Below are positions 13,723 through 60,333 of a stretch of 60,333 nucleotides of DNA, piece after piece. Numbering within the stretch: the first letter of the stretch is position 1; each line of letters starts with the position of its first letter. This stretch comes from an uncultured Acidobacteriota bacterium (GTDB lineage Bacteria; Acidobacteriota; Thermoanaerobaculia; Gp7-AA8), in NCBI GenBank assembly GCA_937870635.1, contig CALMZP010000064.1, forward strand, positions 1-60,333, in the 5' to 3' direction. A model generated the notes under the pieces. The model was given only the letters and a program-made list of their open reading frames with translations, did not search any database and was not told where the DNA came from. Position numbers and translations under genes: made by a program.

Positions 13723-14106
13723 GCGTAGAGCGGATCGGAGGATCGCCGCGGTCCCGCTTGCGGGGATGCGGAGGAAAGTCCGAACTCCAACGGGCAGCAG
13801 GCTGGATAACGTCCAGGCGCGGCGACGCGACGGAAAGTGCAACAGAAAGATACCGCCCCTCGTCGTTCGCAAGAGCGGCGGGAGGTAAGGGTGAAATGGT
13901 GCGGTAAGAGCGCACCGCGTCCCGCGTGAGCGGCGACGGCACGGCAAACCCCCTGCGGAGCAAGACCAAATAGGGAAGCGAGGACCCGCCCGTGTCCTTC
14001 CGAGCTTCCGGGTAGGTTGCTCGACCACCGCGGCAACGCGAGTGGCAGACGAATGATCCTCGCCCCGCAAGGGGAACAGGATTCGGCTTACAGATCCGCT
14101 CTACGC
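13723..14106 (+). ncRNA. rnpB: RNase P RNA, bacterial type A
   Basis: The catalytic RNA that matures tRNA 5' ends. The conserved cores are present: GAGGAAAGTCCGAACTCC (about 13771), ACAGAAAGATACCGCC (13842), GGTAAGGGTGAAATGGTGCG (13883), AGAGCGCACCGC, and near the 3' end the GGCTTACA element. The P1 helix is perfect over 14 bp: GCGTAGAGCGGATC at 13723 pairs with GATCCGCTCTACGC ending at 14106. The length, 384 nt, is normal for type A. Confidence 0.97.
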
Positions 14107-14172: not shown

Positions 14173-14333
14173 GATTCAACCTTCGACCTTCGACCTTGGA
14201 CCCTCAAACCCGCTTCCCGGCAGGACAAGTGGAGCGCGGGCGACCTCGCCCGCGGGGCGGGGGACGCGGGCGAGGTCGCCCGCGCTCCACTGAGAGTTCC
14301 AGGGTCCAGGGTCCAAGGTCCAAGGTCCAATCG
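14173..14333. repeat. TTCGACC heptad arms enclosing a GGAGCG palindrome (nested element)
   Basis: Outer left arm 14173-14205 is ATTCAACCTTCGACCTTCGACCTT-like (period 7). The outer right arm 14295-14333 is GGTCCAA units. Between them, at 14229-14290, sits a complete GGAGCG palindrome (left GTGGAGCGCGGGCGACCTCG, right CGAGGTCGCCCGCGCTCCAC). It fills the gap between rnpB and the LD-carboxypeptidase. Confidence 0.85.
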
Positions 14334-16117: not shown

Positions 16118-16180
16118 GATTTTGGATTTTGGATTTTGGATTTAGTTCCCGTGGAATCCAAAATCCAAAATCTAAAATCC
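16118..16180. repeat. GATTTTG-family inverted heptad array
   Basis: The left arm is GATTTTG tandem units, with a short loop (TTCCCGTGG) and a right arm of CCAAAAT units. It lies between the CNB-FHA gene and recG. Confidence 0.9.
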
Positions 16181-16220
16181 GCCAGAGCCCACCACCCGTA
16201 GAGTCGTTCACAATGGCGGC

Positions 16221-21943: not shown

Positions 21944-22608
21944 GTGACGCGCTCATCGTCGCCATCGACGGCCCCTCGGGCGTCGGCAAGACCACGGCGA
22001 GCCGCCTCGTCGCCCGCGAGCTGAACATCCCTCACATCGACACCGGGGCCATGTATCGAGCCATCGGTGTCGCCGCGCTCCGCGAAGGAATCTCCGTTCA
22101 CGACGCGGCCGCCCTCGAGGAGCTGACGGGGAGGACGCGCATCGAGTTCCTGCCCGGCGAGCGTCCCCGGGTCATCCTCAATGGTGAGGACATCACCGGC
22201 ATGATCCGGACCCCCGAGATCAGCATGGCCGCGAGCCATGTCTCTGCCGTGCCGGCAGTTCGGCGCGCTCTGGTCCGCCTCCAGCAGGCCATGGGGCGGG
22301 CGGGCGGCGGGGTGCTGGAGGGGCGTGACATCGGGACGAAGGTCTTTCCGGAGACCCCGCACAAGTTCTTCCTGACCGCGACGCCGAAAGTGCGGGCCGA
22401 CCGCCGTTACCGCGAGCTCCTGGCGAAGGGGCAGAACATCCCCTTCGAAACGGTCTTAGCCGAGGCCAGTCAAAGAGATGAGCAGGATTCGAGTCGGGCC
22501 GATTCGCCCCTCACGTATGACGAAACCTATACGGTGATCGATACCTCCGAGCTTTCCATCACCGAGGTCGTGCAGTGGATCGTCGACGAGGTCCGCTCGG
22601 GCCGTTGA
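21940..22608 (+). CDS. cmk: Cytidylate kinase
   Basis: The 222-aa CMP/dCMP kinase has the P-loop AIDGPSGVGKTT, IDTGAMYRAIGVAAL, EGRDIGTKVFP and the C-terminal DSSRADSPL region. GTG start at 21940, overlapping the end of rluB. The TGA stop lies inside the first unit (CCGTTGACC) of the heptad array that follows. Confidence 0.95.
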   Translation: MSDALIVAIDGPSGVGKTTASRLVARELNIPHIDTGAMYRAIGVAALREGISVHDAAALEELTGRTRIEFLPGERPRVILNGEDITGMIRTPEISMAASHVSAVPAVRRALVRLQQAMGRAGGGVLEGRDIGTKVFPETPHKFFLTATPKVRADRRYRELLAKGQNIPFETVLAEASQRDEQDSSRADSPLTYDETYTVIDTSELSITEVVQWIVDEVRSGR

Positions 22609-22895
22609 CCGTTAACCGTTAACCGTTAACCGTTAACCGTTAACCGTTAAGGAGCGTAATCCGTCCCCTCGTCACGTCAACACAAGCCGGCGAAACAGTG
22701 GAGCCGCGGGCGATCCGCCCGCGGTGGCGACATGCCACACTCAGAGCTGTCAAGACGGCGAAGGGTCTCAGGATCCGCGGGCGAGGTCGCCCGCGCTCCA
22801 ACATGCGTCGCACAAACGAAAGCACCGCGGGCGGGATCGCCCGCGGCTCCACGGAGTCGGCCGGCTTATGCAGAGCTTCCTTTAACGGTTAACGG
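22604..22895. repeat. CCGTTAA heptad arms enclosing three GGAGCG palindrome units (nested element)
   Basis: The left arm 22604-22650 is six to seven CCGTTAA units; the right arm 22881-22895 is a short TTTAACGGTTAACGG. Inside, at 22698-22852, are GTGGAGCCGCGGGCGATCCG, then ATCCGCGGGCGAGGTCGCCC, then GCGGGATCGCCCGCGGCTCC. No gene is seen in 22609-23089. Confidence 0.85.
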
Positions 22896-26275: not shown

Positions 26276-26345
26276 AATTTTGGATTTTGGATTTTGGATT
26301 TTGGATTGGTCTCAAATCCAAAATCCAAAATCCAAAATCCAAAAT
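26276..26345. repeat. GATTTTG-family inverted heptad array
   Basis: Four GATTTTG units, a loop (GATTGGTCTCAA) and four CCAAAAT units. The end of the right arm, CCAAAATGG, provides the ATG of the HIT gene. Confidence 0.9.
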
Positions 26346-30386: not shown

Positions 30387-31029
30387 AGTGGCTCCTGCCG
30401 TTTTTCGGGTCACTCGTCATACGAGGCCTCCACGCCTCGCTGCGGGTGCGCCACGTCCGCGTCGAGAAGATCAACAATTCGAAGCAGTACGTGCTGACGT
30501 TCTGGCATCAGCACCTCCTGCTCATGCTGCACGCCCGTTACCGCAAGCCGATCTCCGCGCTGGTGTCGCAGTCGAAAGACGGCGAGATCATCGCGCGCGT
30601 CTTCGATCATTACGGCGTCGAGAGCGCCCGCGGTTCCTCGACGCGCGGCGGCCAGGCGGGCATGCGGGACCTCATGCGGCAGGCCCGCGCCGGTCAGAAC
30701 ATCGCCATTACGCCCGACGGCCCGAAAGGTCCTCCGCGCATCGCCAAGGATGGAGTGATCTTCGCCGCTCAGGCGACCGGGCTCCCGATTCTCCCGGTGG
30801 CATTCGCCGCCAAAAAAAAAAGTTACTGCGCTCCTGGGATCGCATGATCGTTCCGCTTCCGTTCAGCCGGGCGATCTATCTCTACGGCGACCCCATCGAA
30901 GTGCCGCGCCGCGGCGATGTCGAAGAATGGCGCCTCCGCGTGGAACAGACGCTGAACGAACTTGCCGCGACGGCGGAAGAACAATTCGAAGAGCTATGGA
31001 AGGAGAAAAGGATGAAGGATGAAGGATGA
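30383..31029 (+). pseudogene. DUF374 lysophospholipid-acyltransferase-like protein with an A10 frameshift
   Basis: The first frame (30383-30847) encodes the N-terminal part: YVLTFWHQHLLLMLHARYR, the catalytic-type block QSKDGEIIARVFDHYG, the RGSSTRGG motif and ITPDGPKGPPRIAK. It then stops shortly after a run of ten A at 30812-30821. The other frame continues the family exactly (KLLRSWDRMIVPLPFSRAI, then YLYGDPIEVP) to a stop at 31029, giving about 215 aa in all, the normal length. One more A, two fewer, or slippage on the run would restore it. It could be a sequencing error, a real pseudogene or programmed transcriptional slippage. Confidence 0.8.
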
Positions 31030-31080
31030 AGGATGAAGGCAGCACGACTTCATCCTTCATCCTTCATCCTTCATCCTTCC
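31009..31080. repeat. GGATGAA-family inverted heptad array
   Basis: Left arm AAGGATGAAGGATGAAGG-type units, loop CAGCACGA, right arm of TTCATCC units. The left arm overlaps the last codons of the DUF374 gene and contains its stop. It is followed after 4 bases by yicC. Confidence 0.9.
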
Positions 31081-34090: not shown

Positions 34091-34837
34091 ATGACTGACG
34101 ACCTCCGGCGTGAGCTGGCGCTGCTGCGCGAATTCGGATTCACGCATCTGGATCTGAGTGGAGCGACCAGTGGAGCGCGGGCGACCTCGCCCGCGTCCGT
34201 TCCATCAGATCCGAACCCCGCGGCAGACGCGGGCGAGGTCGCCCGCGCTCCACTCGGTCCGGATACCGCCGCGATCCTCGAGGCGCCGTCGCTCGACGAG
34301 CTCGCGGTCATCGCCGCACCGTGCATGCGCTGCCGGCTGGCGAAGAGCCGCACGCAGGTCGTGTTCGGCGCCGGCAACCCGAACGCCGACCTCATGTTCA
34401 TCGGCGAAGCGCCCGGGCGCGATGAAGACCTGCAGGGCGAGCCCTTCGTCGGCCGCGCGGGGCAGCTCCTCACCGACATCATCAGGGCGATGAAGCTGAC
34501 GCGCCAGCAGGTTTACATCGCGAACGTGATCAAGTGCCGTCCGCCCGAAAATCGCAATCCCGAGCCCGACGAGCTCGACGCCTGCCGCCCGTACATCCGC
34601 CAGCAGGTGGAGATGATCAGGCCGAAAGTCATCGTGACGCTCGGCAAGTTCGGCCTGAACAGCCTCCTCGAGCAGGCCTATCCGATCTCGTCGGTTCGAG
34701 GCAGCTGGCTCGAGTACCGCGGCGTGAAGGTCATGCCGACGTACCATCCCGCGTATCTCCTGCGCACACCGTCGGCGAAGAAGGACGTCTGGAACGACAT
34801 GAAGAAGGTGATGGCGGAGCTGGAGATTCAATTTTAG
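34091..34837 (+). CDS. Type 4 uracil-DNA glycosylase with an inserted palindrome peptide
   Basis: A 248-aa iron-sulfur UDG that removes uracil from DNA. The catalytic motif is [20 protein letters not shown] and the second motif is [11 protein letters not shown]. Likely [4Fe-4S] ligands are C78 and C81 (CMRC), then Cys in [11 protein letters not shown] and DACRPY. Residues about 27-55 ([10 protein letters not shown]...[10 protein letters not shown]) are a complete translated GGAGCG palindrome placed between the N-terminal helix and the cluster domain, where family members have a variable linker. The TAG stop lies in the first unit of the following heptad array. Confidence 0.93.
34170..34253. 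repeat. GGAGCG palindrome, full copy inside the UDG gene
   Basis: Left arm GTGGAGCGCGGGCGACCTCG, loop TCCGTTCCATCAGATCC..., right arm CGAGGTCGCCCGCGCTCCAC. Both arms stay in the frames seen in other genes ([16 protein letters not shown]). A partial extra left start (GTGGAGCGACC) precedes it at 34158. Confidence 0.9.
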
Positions 34838-34917
34838 ATTTTGGATTTTGGATTTTGGATTTCTACGAGGACTAGATTTCCGCCCAAATCCAAAATCCAA
34901 AATCTAAAATCCAAAAT
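34831..34917. repeat. GATTTTG-family inverted heptad array between UDG and priA
   Basis: The left arm ATTTTAGATTTTGG... carries the UDG stop codon (TAG at 34835-34837). The loop is TTCTACGAGGACTAGATTTCCGCC and the right arm is CCAAAAT units ending 4 bases before the priA ATG. Confidence 0.9.
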
Positions 34918-34921
34918 AGAA

Positions 34922-39110: not shown

Positions 39111-39183
39111 GTTGCCCGTTAACCGTTAACCGTTGACCGAGTTCGAAGCACGGTTAACGGTGAACGGTGAACGGTGAACGATT
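39111..39183. repeat. CCGTTAA-family inverted heptad array
   Basis: Left arm GCCCGTTAACCGTTAACCG, loop TTGACCGAGTTCGAAGCA, right arm CGGTTAACGGTGAACGGTG repeated. It lies between accA and recJ. Confidence 0.9.
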
Positions 39184-40899: not shown

Positions 40900-41002
40900 A
40901 TCGACCTTCGACCTTCGACCTTCGACCTTCGGATCCATCAAACGACACCTGTGTCGCTCGGCGTGATCTCAAGGTCGAAGGCCGAAGGTCGAAGGTCGAA
41001 TC
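40900..41002. repeat. TTCGACC-family inverted heptad array
   Basis: Left arm of four TTCGACC units (40900-40931), a loop of about 38 bases, right arm of AAGGTCG units ending GAATCG (40971-41002). It lies between recJ and the lptC/lptA-like gene. Confidence 0.9.
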
Positions 41003-42968: not shown

Positions 42969-43175
42969 CGGCGAGTAACGAGTGACGAGTAACGGGTGGC
43001 GACACGTTTGTCATCCCGAGCGTGAGCGAGGGACCTGGGGGCCGGGCGGCGCGCAGTCCGATCTTCGTGCCGCCCTTCACACCCAGGTCCCTCGCTCACG
43101 CTCGGGATGACACGTTGGCCACCCACTCGTCACTCGTTACTCGTGACTCGTCACTTCCCTCGTCACCCGTCACTC
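42965..43175. repeat. ACGAGTA heptad arms enclosing a TCCCGAGCGTGAGCGAGG palindrome (nested element)
   Basis: Outer left arm is ACGAGTA/ACGAGTG units at 42971-42999. Outer right arm is CACTCGT/TACTCGT units at about 43121-43175. Inside, GTCATCCCGAGCGTGAGCGAGGGACCTGGG (43011 on) mirrors CCCAGGTCCCTCGCTCACGCTCGGGATGAC (to 43111). It lies between the lptC/lptA-like gene and lptB. Confidence 0.9.
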
Positions 43176-43202
43176 GTTCCTATACCATTCCGCCCCGGAA
43201 CC

Positions 43203-43995: not shown

Positions 43996-45459
43996 ATGGC
44001 ACTAGAACAGAAACTTCACCTCAAACTCTCCCAGAAGCTCATCATGACGCCTTCGCTGCAGCAGGCGATCAAGCTGCTGCAATTGTCCAAACTCGAGCTT
44101 CAGGAAGTCCTCAACCAGGAGCTTCTCGAGAACCCCCTTCTCGAAGAAACCGCCGAAGAAGTGAAGGCCGAAGAGGCCGAGGCGGAGGCTCAGGAGGCGA
44201 AGGCAGCCGACGGACAGGAAGAGCCGAAGAAGACCGAGACCGCCGAGCAGGAGAAGGAGAAGGATTCCTTCGACGAGATCGACTACGACGCCTACTTCCA
44301 GGACTACATCGAGTACGGCTACAACCCCCGCGGGATGGGGGAGGAGCACGAAGAGTTTCCGATCGAGAACACGCTCACCCGCCCGCCCAACCTCACCGAT
44401 CACCTCACCTGGCAGCTGAGCATGAGCGACGCGTCGCCCAACGTGAAAGAGATCGGTGCCTTCATCATCGGCAACATCGACGAGGACGGCTACCTCCGCG
44501 CCACCAACGAGGAGATTGCCTCCTCGGGCAACCACGATCCGGCGGAAGTCGAAAAAGCGGTCAAGGCCATCCAGAGCCTCGACCCGATCGGCGTCGGCGC
44601 GCGCGACCTCCGCGAGTGCCTGCTTCTGCAGCTCGAGTTCCTCGAGCTCGACGTGCCGCTGGTCGAGGAGATCATCCGCGACCACTGGGACATGTTCATG
44701 CAGCGCCACTTCGTGCAGCTGGCGAAGGCGCTCGGCATCGACATGAAGACGCTCGAGGGCGTGGTCGAGATCATCAAGCATCTCGATCCGAAGCCGGGCC
44801 GGAAGTACTCGAACGAGCGCGCCATCTACGTCGAGCCCGACGTTTACGTCCAGAAGGTCGGCGACGAATACGTGATCGTTCTCAACGAGGACGGCATGCC
44901 GAAGCTGCGCATCAACGGCAGCTACCGGGCCATGCTCAACTCGATGGACTCAAAGCAGGACGGCGAGACGGTCAACTACATCAAGGACAAGATCCGCTCG
45001 GCGGTGTGGCTCATCAAGTCACTCGACCAGCGCCAGCGCACGATCTACAAGGTTGCCGAGTCGATCGTGAAGCATCAGCGCGAGTTCCTGGAGAAGGGGA
45101 TCGACTTCCTCCGGCCGCTCGTCCTCCGTGACGTGGCCGACGACATCCAGATGCACGAGTCGACCGTGTCCCGCGTCGTGTCGAACAAGTACATGCACAC
45201 GCCGCGCGGGCTCTTCCTGATGAAGTACTTCTTCCACAGCGGCATCGACTCCGACACGGGTGAGGACATCTCGAGCCTGACCGTGAAGAAGAAGATTCAG
45301 AGCTTCATCGACGCCGAGGACCCGCGGAAGCCGCTGTCCGATTCGAAGATCATGAAGATCCTGAACGACGAGGGCATCAACATCGCCCGGCGCACGGTGG
45401 CGAAGTACCGCGACGAGCTGAACATTCCGTCGTCCACGGATCGGAAGCAGATTTTCTAA
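43996..45459 (+). CDS. rpoN: RNA polymerase sigma-54 factor
   Basis: The 487-aa alternative sigma factor depends on AAA+ activators. Region I has the Gln/Leu-rich activator-binding sequence (LKLSQKLIMTPSLQQAIKLLQLSKLELQ). Region II is acidic (EEVKAEEAEAEAQEAKAADG). The core-binding domain starts at DHLTWQLSMSD. The C-terminal DNA-binding part contains the HTH (VADDIQMHESTVSRVVSNK) and the RpoN box ARRTVAKYRDE (about 465). The last 489 bases are duplicated at 48220-48708. Confidence 0.96.
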   Translation: MALEQKLHLKLSQKLIMTPSLQQAIKLLQLSKLELQEVLNQELLENPLLEETAEEVKAEEAEAEAQEAKAADGQEEPKKTETAEQEKEKDSFDEIDYDAYFQDYIEYGYNPRGMGEEHEEFPIENTLTRPPNLTDHLTWQLSMSDASPNVKEIGAFIIGNIDEDGYLRATNEEIASSGNHDPAEVEKAVKAIQSLDPIGVGARDLRECLLLQLEFLELDVPLVEEIIRDHWDMFMQRHFVQLAKALGIDMKTLEGVVEIIKHLDPKPGRKYSNERAIYVEPDVYVQKVGDEYVIVLNEDGMPKLRINGSYRAMLNSMDSKQDGETVNYIKDKIRSAVWLIKSLDQRQRTIYKVAESIVKHQREFLEKGIDFLRPLVLRDVADDIQMHESTVSRVVSNKYMHTPRGLFLMKYFFHSGIDSDTGEDISSLTVKKKIQSFIDAEDPRKPLSDSKIMKILNDEGINIARRTVAKYRDELNIPSSTDRKQIF

Positions 45460-48147: not shown

Positions 48148-48708
48148 GTGAAGGACGCGGTCACTCGACCCGTAGCGCCACGGTGCGACTCATTGGCGGA
48201 TTGCTCGCTCGACGCCACCGTCAACTACATCAAGGACAAGATCCGCTCCGCGGTGTGGCTCATCAAGTCACTCGACCAGCGCCAGCGCACGATCTACAAG
48301 GTTGCCGAGTCGATCGTGAAGCATCAGCGCGAGTTCCTGGAGAAGGGGATCGACTTCCTCCGGCCGCTCGTCCTCCGTGACGTGGCCGACGACATCCAGA
48401 TGCACGAGTCGACCGTGTCCCGCGTCGTGTCGAACAAGTACATGCACACGCCGCGCGGGCTCTTCCTGATGAAGTACTTCTTCCACAGCGGCATCGACTC
48501 CGACACGGGTGAGGACATCTCGAGCCTGACCGTGAAGAAGAAGATTCAGAGCTTCATCGACGCCGAGGACCCGCGGAAGCCGCTGTCCGATTCGAAGATC
48601 ATGAAGATCCTGAACGACGAGGGCATCAACATCGCCCGGCGCACGGTGGCGAAGTACCGCGACGAGCTCAACATTCCGTCGTCGACGGATCGGAAGCAGA
48701 TTTTCTAA
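48148..48708 (+). pseudogene. Duplicated C-terminal fragment of sigma-54 (rpoN)
   Basis: From 48220 on it repeats the last 163 residues of RpoN including the HTH and RpoN box (ARRTVAKYRDELNIPSS), identical in protein apart from the junction. The first 24 residues come from unrelated sequence. A GTG at 48148 could allow translation into a 186-aa promoter-binding fragment without core-binding or activator regions. It is most simply the severed native 3' end, or a copy brought by the insert. Confidence 0.85.
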
Positions 48709-49925: not shown

Positions 49926-49997
49926 GATTTTGGATTTTGGATTTTGGATTTTGGATTGCGCACAAATGCAAAATCGGCGATCCAAAATCCAAAATCC
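49926..49997. repeat. GATTTTG-family inverted heptad array
   Basis: Left arm GATTTTG units, loop GCGCACAAATGC, right arm CCAAAAT units with one decayed unit (AAAATCGGCGA). It lies between hpf and hprK. Confidence 0.9.
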
Positions 49998-52921: not shown

Positions 52922-52989
52922 ATTTTGGATTTTGGATTTTGGATTTATTCTGGATTGATGCTTTCAATCCAAAATCCAAAATCCAAAAT
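52922..52989. repeat. GATTTTG-family inverted heptad array
   Basis: Left arm ATTTTGGATTTTGGATTT, loop ATTCTGGATTGATGCTTTC, right arm CCAAAAT units. It lies between rapZ and the EIIA gene. Confidence 0.9.
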
Positions 52990-53815: not shown

Positions 53816-53900
53816 GGCTCTGGGCTCTTGGCTCTTGGCTCTTGGGGGGCCCGTGACAAAGGCCTCCCAAAAGCCAGGAGCCAAGAGCCAAGAGCCCAGT
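53816..53900. repeat. AGCCAAG-family inverted heptad array
   Basis: Left arm GGCTCTG-GGCTCTT-GGCTCTT-GGCTCTT, loop GGGGGGCCCGTGACAAAGGCCTCCC, right arm AGCCAGG-AGCCAAG-AGCCAAG-AGCCCAG. It lies between HPr and EI. Same family as the uvrC tail (11158). Confidence 0.92.
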
Positions 53901-59295: not shown

Positions 59296-59358
59296 GATTT
59301 TGGATTTTGGATTTTGGATTGGGTCAAATCCAAAATCCAAAATCCAAAATCTAAAATG
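59296..59358. repeat. GATTTTG-family inverted heptad array
   Basis: Left arm GATTTTG units, loop GGGTC, right arm CCAAAAT units. It lies between parA and parB, which are usually directly coupled. Confidence 0.9.
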
Positions 59359-59378: not shown

Positions 59379-60215
59379 ATGGCAATGAAAAGAGGCCTGC
59401 CGCAGAAACCGATGATGCGCCATGACTCGCATTACGTCGAAGAGCTGACGAAGCGATCGGGGAGGCACATCGGCTCGATGCTGCCGCTCAGCATGATCGA
59501 GCCCAACGCCGAGCAGCCCCGCACGAACCTCGGCAACATCGAGGAGTTGGCCGCGTCGATCCGCGAGAAGGGCGTGCTCGAGCCGATCCTCGTGCGCAAC
59601 GTCGCGCCGAACCGGTACCAGATCATCTCCGGCGAGCGCCGCTACCGCGCCGCGACGCTGGCCGATCTCGACGAGATTCCGGCCATCGAGCTCGACGTCG
59701 ACGACAAGGAGATGCTCGAGATCGCGCTGATCGAGAACATCCAGCGCAAAGACCTGACCGCGTTCGAAGAAGCGGAAGGCTTCCTGCTTCTGCAGCAGCG
59801 GTTCAACTACACGCACGAGAGGATCGCGCAGGTCATCGGCAAGTCGCGAACGACGATCACCGAGACGCTCACGATCAACGAGATTCCGGACCGCATCCGC
59901 GCGATGTGCCGGGAAGCGGGCATCTCCAACAAATCGGTGCTGGTGCAGATCGCGCGCGCGGGATCCGAAGAGGCGATGGAGGCGATCGTCCGCGGCTATG
60001 CAAGAGGGGAGATGTCGCGCGACGACGTCCGCAAGCAGACCGCCTCGAAGCCGCAGCCGAAAAAGGCCGGCCGCCCGAAGAACTTCACGTACGAGATCAA
60101 GGACAAGTCGCTGCCCTTCAAGCTCAATCTCAGCTTCAACAAGCCCGATGTCGATCGGGGAGAGGTGATCAGCGCCGTCCGGGAGCTGCTGCGGCGGCTC
60201 GAAGCTGAGAAGTGA
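59379..60215 (+). CDS. parB: ParB-family chromosome partitioning protein
   Basis: The 278-aa centromere-binding CTPase: NAEQPRTNLGNIEELAASIREKG, YQIISGERRYRAATLA (the GERR CTP-binding box), IENIQRKDLTAFEEAEGFLLL, HTH (THERIAQVIGKSRTTITETL) and a C-terminal dimerisation helix. No parS-like TGTTTCACGTGAAACA was seen in the window. The extra linker is Lys/Pro-rich. Confidence 0.94.
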   Translation: MAMKRGLPQKPMMRHDSHYVEELTKRSGRHIGSMLPLSMIEPNAEQPRTNLGNIEELAASIREKGVLEPILVRNVAPNRYQIISGERRYRAATLADLDEIPAIELDVDDKEMLEIALIENIQRKDLTAFEEAEGFLLLQQRFNYTHERIAQVIGKSRTTITETLTINEIPDRIRAMCREAGISNKSVLVQIARAGSEEAMEAIVRGYARGEMSRDDVRKQTASKPQPKKAGRPKNFTYEIKDKSLPFKLNLSFNKPDVDRGEVISAVRELLRRLEAEK

Positions 60216-60333
60216 CCGTTGACCGTTGACCGTTGACCGTTAACCGTTAACCGTTAACCGTTAACCGTTAACCGTTAACCGTTAACCGTTAACCGTTAAC
60301 CGCGAGAGCGTAGCCTGCCCACGTCATCCTGAG
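60213..60333. repeat. CCGTTAA heptad array followed by the start of an inner palindrome, cut by the window
   Basis: About 13 units of CCGTTGA/CCGTTAA (60213-60303) begin at the parB stop. At 60324 the sequence GTCATCCTGAG starts, identical to the left end of the TCCTGAGCGAAGCGAAGG family. By analogy with 14173, 22604 and 42965 this is the left half of a nested element. Confidence 0.85.

Follow-up and report, generated by a model that had tools for sequence, protein, structure and literature searches.

The window analysed here, a stretch of 60,333 nt, is one complete contig (G000:C64) of a Thermoanaerobaculia (Acidobacteriota) MAG of 4.52 Mb in 171 contigs, 98.7% complete, and it carries four sites at which arms of tandem 7-nt units (heptads) enclose a different palindrome (Table 1). 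A sequence-only reading had claimed these four nested sites, and all of them are present. At the first (14173-14333), an inverted GTGGAGCGCGGGCGA doublet lies between heptad arms, and the site folds as a single hairpin (z -11.8). Its upstream neighbour is not a stop codon but the gene for a class A (bacterial) RNase P RNA (13727-14106, 270 bits), which lies directly upstream, and the nested element may act at the 3' end of this RNA. The CCGTTAA arms of the second site (22602-22895) are unequal, with seven units on the left versus two on the right, and enclose three GGAGC(C)G units and a broken half of a TCCTGAG palindrome (GACGGCGAAGGGTCTCAGGAT); because P1 units and a broken P2 half (the palindromes are described below) both lie inside the arms, this nest appears to be three deep, with CCGTTAA arms outermost, a P2 relic within them and P1 units breaking up the relic. 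The third site (42971-43180) has a 100-nt TCATCCCGAGCG palindrome within ACGAGTA/ACGAGTG arms (z -15.9), and at the fourth (60213-60333) a CCGTTAA/CCGTTGA arm is followed by a 17-nt spacer, CACGTCATCCTGAG and the contig end. The mirrored half past 60333 is unreadable because the contig stops there; the mirrored half of the same CCGTTAA-P2 architecture is present at ~10 paralogous loci. Several contigs, that of the window included, end in heptad or palindrome repeats, a warning that such repeats break assemblies. An assembly artefact as the source of the nests is rejected, as nests are found inside contigs and in different words.

Table 1. Nested sites and heptad-only hairpins of the window
Feature	Position	Strand
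Left heptad arm, TTCAACC TTCGACC TTCGACC TTGGACC	14175..14205	+
Inner P1 palindrome (REPIN), inverted doublet GTGGAGCGCGGGCGACCTCGCCCGCG ... CGCGGGCGAGGTCGCCCGCGCTCCAC	14229..14291	
Right heptad arm GGTCCAG/GGTCCAA, inverted relative to left arm	14297..14330	+
Heptad-only hairpin, GGATTTT	16118..16185	
Left CCGTTAA arm, 7 units; includes TGA stop of upstream gene (ending 22608)	22602..22650	+
Inner P1 unit 1	22698..22725	+
Relic of P2 (TCCTGAG-type) half, apparently P1-interrupted, by comparison with P2 copies	22737..22776	+
Inner P1 units 2 and 3	22777..22853	
Right arm, TTAACGG x2	22882..22895	+
Heptad-only hairpin, GGATTTT, 6-nt tip	26277..26345	
Heptad-only hairpin, AAGGATG, 8-nt tip	31008..31079	
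Heptad-only hairpin, GGATTTT	34831..34921	
Heptad-only hairpin, CCGTTAA / AACGGTG, inner palindrome absent	39116..39180	
Heptad-only hairpin, TTCGACC	40901..41000	
Left ACGAGTA/ACGAGTG arm, directly 3' of stop of gene ending 42968	42971..42999	+
Inner P3 palindrome TGTCATCCCGAGCG...CGCTCGGGATGACA	43010..43111	
Right arm, CACTCGT/TACTCGT units	43122..43180	+
Heptad-only hairpin, GGATTTT	49926..49997	
Heptad-only hairpin, GGATTTT	52922..52989	
Heptad-only hairpin, GGCTCTT	53816..53896	
Heptad-only hairpin, GGATTTT, 5-nt tip	59296..59357	
Left CCGTTGA/CCGTTAA arm, ~12 units; begins on TGA stop of gene ending 60215	60213..60302	+
P2, first 14 nt (CACGTCATCCTGAG), up to contig end	60320..60333	+

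Heptad-armed hairpins: one period, several words

Tandem arrays of the window comprise 23 of period 7 and, for all other periods from 2 to 15, none except a period-14 harmonic. Across the 817 kb of the genome in which heptad arrays and hairpins were surveyed, 213 arrays have period 7, versus 0-16 for any other period from 1 to 30, and shuffled sequence contains essentially no period-7 arrays; scaled by length, the genome would hold >1000 of them. Exact matches to CCAAAATCCAAAATCC number 512 genome-wide, and those to its reversed control 0. The genome uses about ten common heptad words, the main ones being AAAATCC (73 arrays), AACCGTT, AAGGTCC, AAGGATG, AAGGTCG, AACATTC, ACCCTGG and AAGCACC, and in four of these (AAAATCC, AACCGTT, AAGGTCC and AAGGATG) a GGG tract is absent from either strand. 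The window also contains a direct duplication of 300 nt (44961-45260 and 48210-48509, 98% identical), and the duplicated spacers nearby contain TTGGACC units (45514) in one case and TTCGACC-like units (around 48765) in the other; a comparison of the two suggests that the heptad word changed after the duplication.

Neighbouring arrays face one another as hairpin arms in 77 pairs, whereas only 10 run in the same direction, and the hairpins fold as near-perfect stems around a tip that is usually 1-30 nt long and varies in sequence from locus to locus. The polarity of the 5' arm is constant for GGATTTT (32/32), TTGGACC (10/10), TTCGACC (8/8) and AAGGATG (7/7), with AATGTTG, present in both orientations, as the exception; in the genome-wide listing of CCAAAATCC arrays, paired matches likewise run minus strand, then plus strand. 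Boundary phase is narrow in the best-sampled word: forward GATTTTG arrays start on GATTTTG or ATTTTGG in 33/36 cases and end on TTGGATT or TGGATTT in 31/36. Unit number in one arm does not correlate with that in the other (rho -0.24, -0.10 and -0.07), and the two GATTTTG arms of a given hairpin are no closer to one another in sequence than shuffled arms are, two findings that argue against copying from arm to arm; this template-switching route is rejected, with the qualification that within-hairpin likeness of TTSGACC arms is slightly above that of shuffled ones. The arm data fit dispersal of a founder hairpin followed by independent gain and loss of units.

With genes called by a simple codon-bias script (655 genes, 85% coverage), the hairpins fall mostly into tandem and convergent gaps, and divergent gaps are depleted, holding only 5 of the 66 intergenic hairpins (p=0.0085). 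Within tandem gaps, hairpins keep closer to the preceding stop codon (median distance 10 nt) than to the following gene (38 nt; Wilcoxon p=0.0016), and at several genes, such as those ending at 22608 and 60215, the array itself supplies the stop codon. This tight placement and the very stable folds are what one would expect if each hairpin had arisen on its own and been selected as an RNA structure at the 3' end, whether terminator or mRNA stabiliser, and if nesting merely reflected a preference for long hairpins downstream of genes. We consider such an origin highly improbable, since independent formation leaves the exclusive use of period 7, the common words, the fixed polarity and phase and the copied spacers (see below) unexplained, and the flanks of the heptad hairpins hold no regular T run behind the stems. 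A search of Rfam returned no match for the heptad hairpins or the palindromes.

The inner palindromes P1, P2 and P3

Three palindromes recur inside heptad hairpins. P1, the GGAGCG palindrome (GTGGAGCGCGGGCGACCTCGCCCGCG and its inverse), forms 48 clusters in the 817 kb, and the element at 14173 gives 94 alignments genome-wide, a number in which both strands of each palindrome are counted. At locus L139 (G000:C139), P1 copies lie on both sides of a short ORF whose protein matches the REP-associated tyrosine transposase family NCBIfam NF047646 (104 bits against a cut-off of 80 bits); because it flanks this RAYT gene, P1 is a REP/REPIN with its own RAYT. The inverted doublet forms the hairpin at the first site, although some P1 copies are not doublets. 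P1 starts with GTGGAG, and the classical GTAG/CGTC end tag was not seen in an unsystematic look. P2, the TCCTGAG palindrome (CACGTCATCCTGAG...CTCAGGATGACGTG, about 85-95 nt), and P3, the TCCCGAG palindrome (TGTCATCCCGAGCG...CGCTCGGGATGACA, about 100 nt), are built as doublets like P1 and are probably elements of the same REPIN type, with no copy beside a RAYT gene at three Y1 loci, within 3.3 kb of each.

Two side observations concern the ends of these palindromes. P2 copies at L169, L174 and G000:C31:45019 are broken at the identical point, where CTGAG is followed by AGGCTGTG.AG; the shared break point suggests an insertion sequence or another element that would target P2. Heptad-free P3 copies at L197, L212, L217 and L219 are often bordered by AAAAAGCG / CGCTTTTT, which could possibly be a longer P3 terminus, and several of these copies adjoin GTGCGGCAGC palindromes.

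Nesting in both orders

Enclosure by heptads was scored for P2 in two ways, with a strict detector and by inspecting the flanks by eye. According to the detector, 14 of 29 distinct P2 loci have inverted heptads on both sides, 9 on one side and 6 on neither; by eye, about 20/29 are two-sided, and 0/29 lie between arrays of the same direction. The enclosing words are CCGTTAA, ACGAGTG, GGTGCTT, TTCGACC, TTGGACC, TGAACGA and TTGAGAA. Heptads on both sides were found at 10 of 4000 random intergenic positions, which rejects a shared preference for intergenic DNA as the sole cause of the co-location of P2 with heptads, and on one side at ~10%; given the latter figure, the 5 of 48 P1 clusters with heptads (strict count) are not above background. 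Any heptad accompanies 7 of 29 P3 copies by the strict count, and inspection adds a few further degenerate cases. Words differ in what their hairpins hold: P1-P3 palindromes lie inside 0 of 32 AAAATCC hairpins versus about 6 of 15 CCGTTAA hairpins, the latter counted by eye (p=5e-4), and this contrast rejects the idea that palindromes enter heptad hairpins without regard to their word. Taken together, the P2 counts, the intergenic control and this contrast between words show that P2 nesting is real, non-random and word-selective. AAAATCC hairpins are free of palindromes even though their tips look equally available, and insertion at tips would therefore be at least word-selective.

The claim that heptads always lie outside holds at the four sites of the window and fails genome-wide. 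In G000:C32 (44910-45140), a P3-type palindrome has a CATTCAA hairpin (C32:44949-45050) between its halves, and in G000:C91 (27779-27868) a GGATTTT hairpin (C91:27799-27848) lies within a GGAGTGCGGCAGCGAGA palindrome. In general, elements seem to land, or to be tolerated, at the tips of hairpins that were there before them.

The sequence-only reading had offered two histories: either palindromes entered the loops of heptad hairpins, or a mobile palindrome acquired heptads at its borders. The first is the better supported in general, because most heptad hairpins lack a palindrome, because the same palindrome is found within about seven words, and because P3 and P1 are mostly free of heptads. 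The second is generally less supported, and a version of it holds for one combination. CCGTTAA-P2 elements at different loci have inner spacers in common, such as GGGCTTGACGCGTTGGACGGACCGGTTACGCTCTC, which recurs with close variants at four of them; in pairwise comparison, 7.1% of inner spacers attain a local score of 12, versus 1.3% for the outer sequences and 0.3% for inner spacers after shuffling. Because the inner spacers are shared while the outer flanks are unrelated, the series CCGTTAA-spacer-P2-spacer-TTAACGG seems to have been copied whole, the composite spreading as a unit.

Such copying, along with fixed polarity and boundary phase, is also what would be seen if heptad arms were the terminal inverted repeats of MITE-like units with the palindrome as cargo, each composite being mobile whatever its word. 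We think this rather doubtful as a general account: the other words have no common P2 spacer and their tips vary between loci, a target-site duplication is not evident by eye in the flanks (inverted ends are present, and the array ends are ambiguous), and searches of the Y1 and RT families revealed no known partner transposase with heptad ends.

The main rival, on account of the regularity with which P2 is enclosed, is that heptads grow around palindromes: replication would stall, a 7-nt flank would slip into an array and a template switch would copy this array, inverted, across the base of the hairpin. As this route predicts, inverted copies of about seven words enclose P2 far more often than they do random intergenic positions, and heptads are outermost in most nests; the frequency of P2 enclosure, which counts against our own reading, allows a causal link from palindrome to heptads. 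Growth of this kind is nevertheless unlikely in our judgement, given that it does not lead one to expect a majority of palindrome-free heptad hairpins, uncorrelated arm lengths and GATTTTG arms without special likeness (TTSGACC arms being slightly more alike than shuffled ones), a polarity fixed over dozens of loci with unrelated flanks, or the two nests with heptads inside.

We favor, with somewhat better than even confidence, the reading that heptad hairpins are one kind of 3'-end element and REPINs another, that the two nest at each other's tips, and that one composite was then amplified. Two kinds of dispersed 3'-end hairpin would occupy the same intergenic slots. The first would have the form (word)n, a tip of about 1-30 nt and (reverse complement of word)m, each common word representing a lineage-founded family of fixed polarity in which the number of units drifts independently in each arm, presumably through replication slippage. 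The second would consist of the REPIN-type palindromes P1, tied to the RAYT of this genome, P2 and P3. An element would land, or survive only, in the tip of an existing hairpin, as a target or as a tolerated site, because the outer stem still pairs after insertion there, and landing or survival at tips would give rise to nests in both orders. A nest of CCGTTAA arms and P2 would later have been copied as a unit to several loci. Movement could proceed by RAYT-driven single-strand transposition, and the hairpins, if transcribed, could function at the 3' ends of mRNAs in the manner of REPs. If elements do insert at tips, the inner one is the later arrival, and each nest would therefore preserve the sequence of arrivals in a genome that has no close relatives.

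Known systems and relatives

Part of this organization has precedents. Xanthomonas genomes carry 183-186 GGGAATC arrays each, with 70-75 cases of convergent paired sites, and most of these heptamers lie <50 bp from stop codons, in part with overlap, while few are found between divergent ORFs (Rehm et al. 2015, PMC4692102). The Nostoc heptamer is GGGGA(C/T)T, the number of units differs between species, and for heptamers as a class, slippage of the polymerase at a 7-nt footprint has been put forward (PMC4692102). The present arrays resemble those of Xanthomonas and Nostoc in their tandem 7-nt units, in their convergent inverted pairs near stops and in their scarcity within divergent gaps; they differ in that a single G-rich, quadruplex-forming word is used there, whereas about ten mostly non-G4 words are used here, and in the REPIN-like palindromes at their tips. 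In Nostoc, small dispersed repeats (SDR), hairpin elements of 21-27 nt, are reported by Elhai and colleagues (2008) to be often embedded in tandem heptamers, with nested insertions; P2 and P3 doublets measure about 85-100 nt, and here, unlike in that arrangement, the heptads themselves make up the arms of a hairpin that encloses the element.

P1 matches the REP/REPIN-RAYT (TnpA-REP) systems as a high-copy hairpin of an inverted REP doublet that flanks a RAYT gene, from which P2 and P3 depart at the Y1 loci mentioned above. REPINs that insert into or next to REPINs are described in the relevant part of PMC3116915, in which nesting in heptad-armed hairpins is not found for those elements. Abundant intergenic tandem heptamers in many copies are likewise known from Beggiatoaceae, where TAACTGA arrays are mostly direct with only one inverted set in the genome (PMC4679880), and from Geobacter metallireducens, whose elements have 4-5 units (PMC2700814); the pertinent passages of these two sources report no palindrome nesting. 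Heptad hairpins and REPIN-in-REPIN insertion are known already, from Xanthomonas in the former case, and the present genome adds a variation on them, with several words side by side, constant polarity and REPIN-like doublets at the tips.

Period 7 is common in outline to Xanthomonas, Nostoc, Beggiatoaceae, Geobacter and the present genome, and a strict period 7 in many unrelated words sharpens the old question of why seven and opens it to testing, because any model must account for the polarity, the phase and the independence of arm lengths. A speculative answer, to which we give a low probability, would be a sequence-independent 7-nt ruler, an activity that makes or spreads hairpins with arms of exact tandem 7-nt units whatever the word, across unrelated phyla, with words and polarity peculiar to each lineage and with REPINs preferring the tips.

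The nearest named relatives of the present genome are Thermoanaerobaculia / Acidobacteria group-7 MAGs. The genomes available for comparison all lie outside the genus, and some, G007 among them, belong to the same family. In the orthologous cmk-rpsA spacer, no element is present in the distant relatives L059, L060, L063, L066, L069, L071, L072 and L073; L061 has a TCATCCTGAG palindrome without heptads, and L064 an unrelated palindrome. CCGTTAA hairpins recur in G007 (loci L222, L223, L224, L228 and L233) with the opposite polarity, TTAACGG first, and with tips that are similar to one another, and the stretches examined contain no P2 within them; these hairpins apparently go back to a separate founder in a sister genus.

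These hairpins bear on the notion of a dedicated enzyme, telomerase-like or otherwise, that extends both 3' ends of a break by 7-nt repeats before the ends are joined. If such an enzyme were at work, polarity should be fixed, the two arms should vary in length independently and tips should differ, as is indeed the case in the present genome. Its action would not lead one to expect the same word with opposite polarity and related tips in G007, and the copying of composites and the variant units common between loci indicate dispersal of existing arrays. A reverse-transcriptase origin is further disfavored because the 98.7% complete genome gives no RVT_1 match; for the same reason a telomerase- or retron-like origin is rejected, and we assign the dedicated enzyme a very slight probability.

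Richness in heptads recurs in the family with different words: the first 20 kb of G004:C1 (L236) contain nine period-7 arrays, with GGGAGTC, CGACCCC, ATCAGAG and others as words, and family members other than G007 have few heptad arrays or arrays of other words. What is common to the family is period 7; words and polarity are not. As a separate observation, an uncultured Ruminococcus (L100, a Firmicutes MAG) has four heptad arrays (GACAATT, GAAAATG) in 18 kb.
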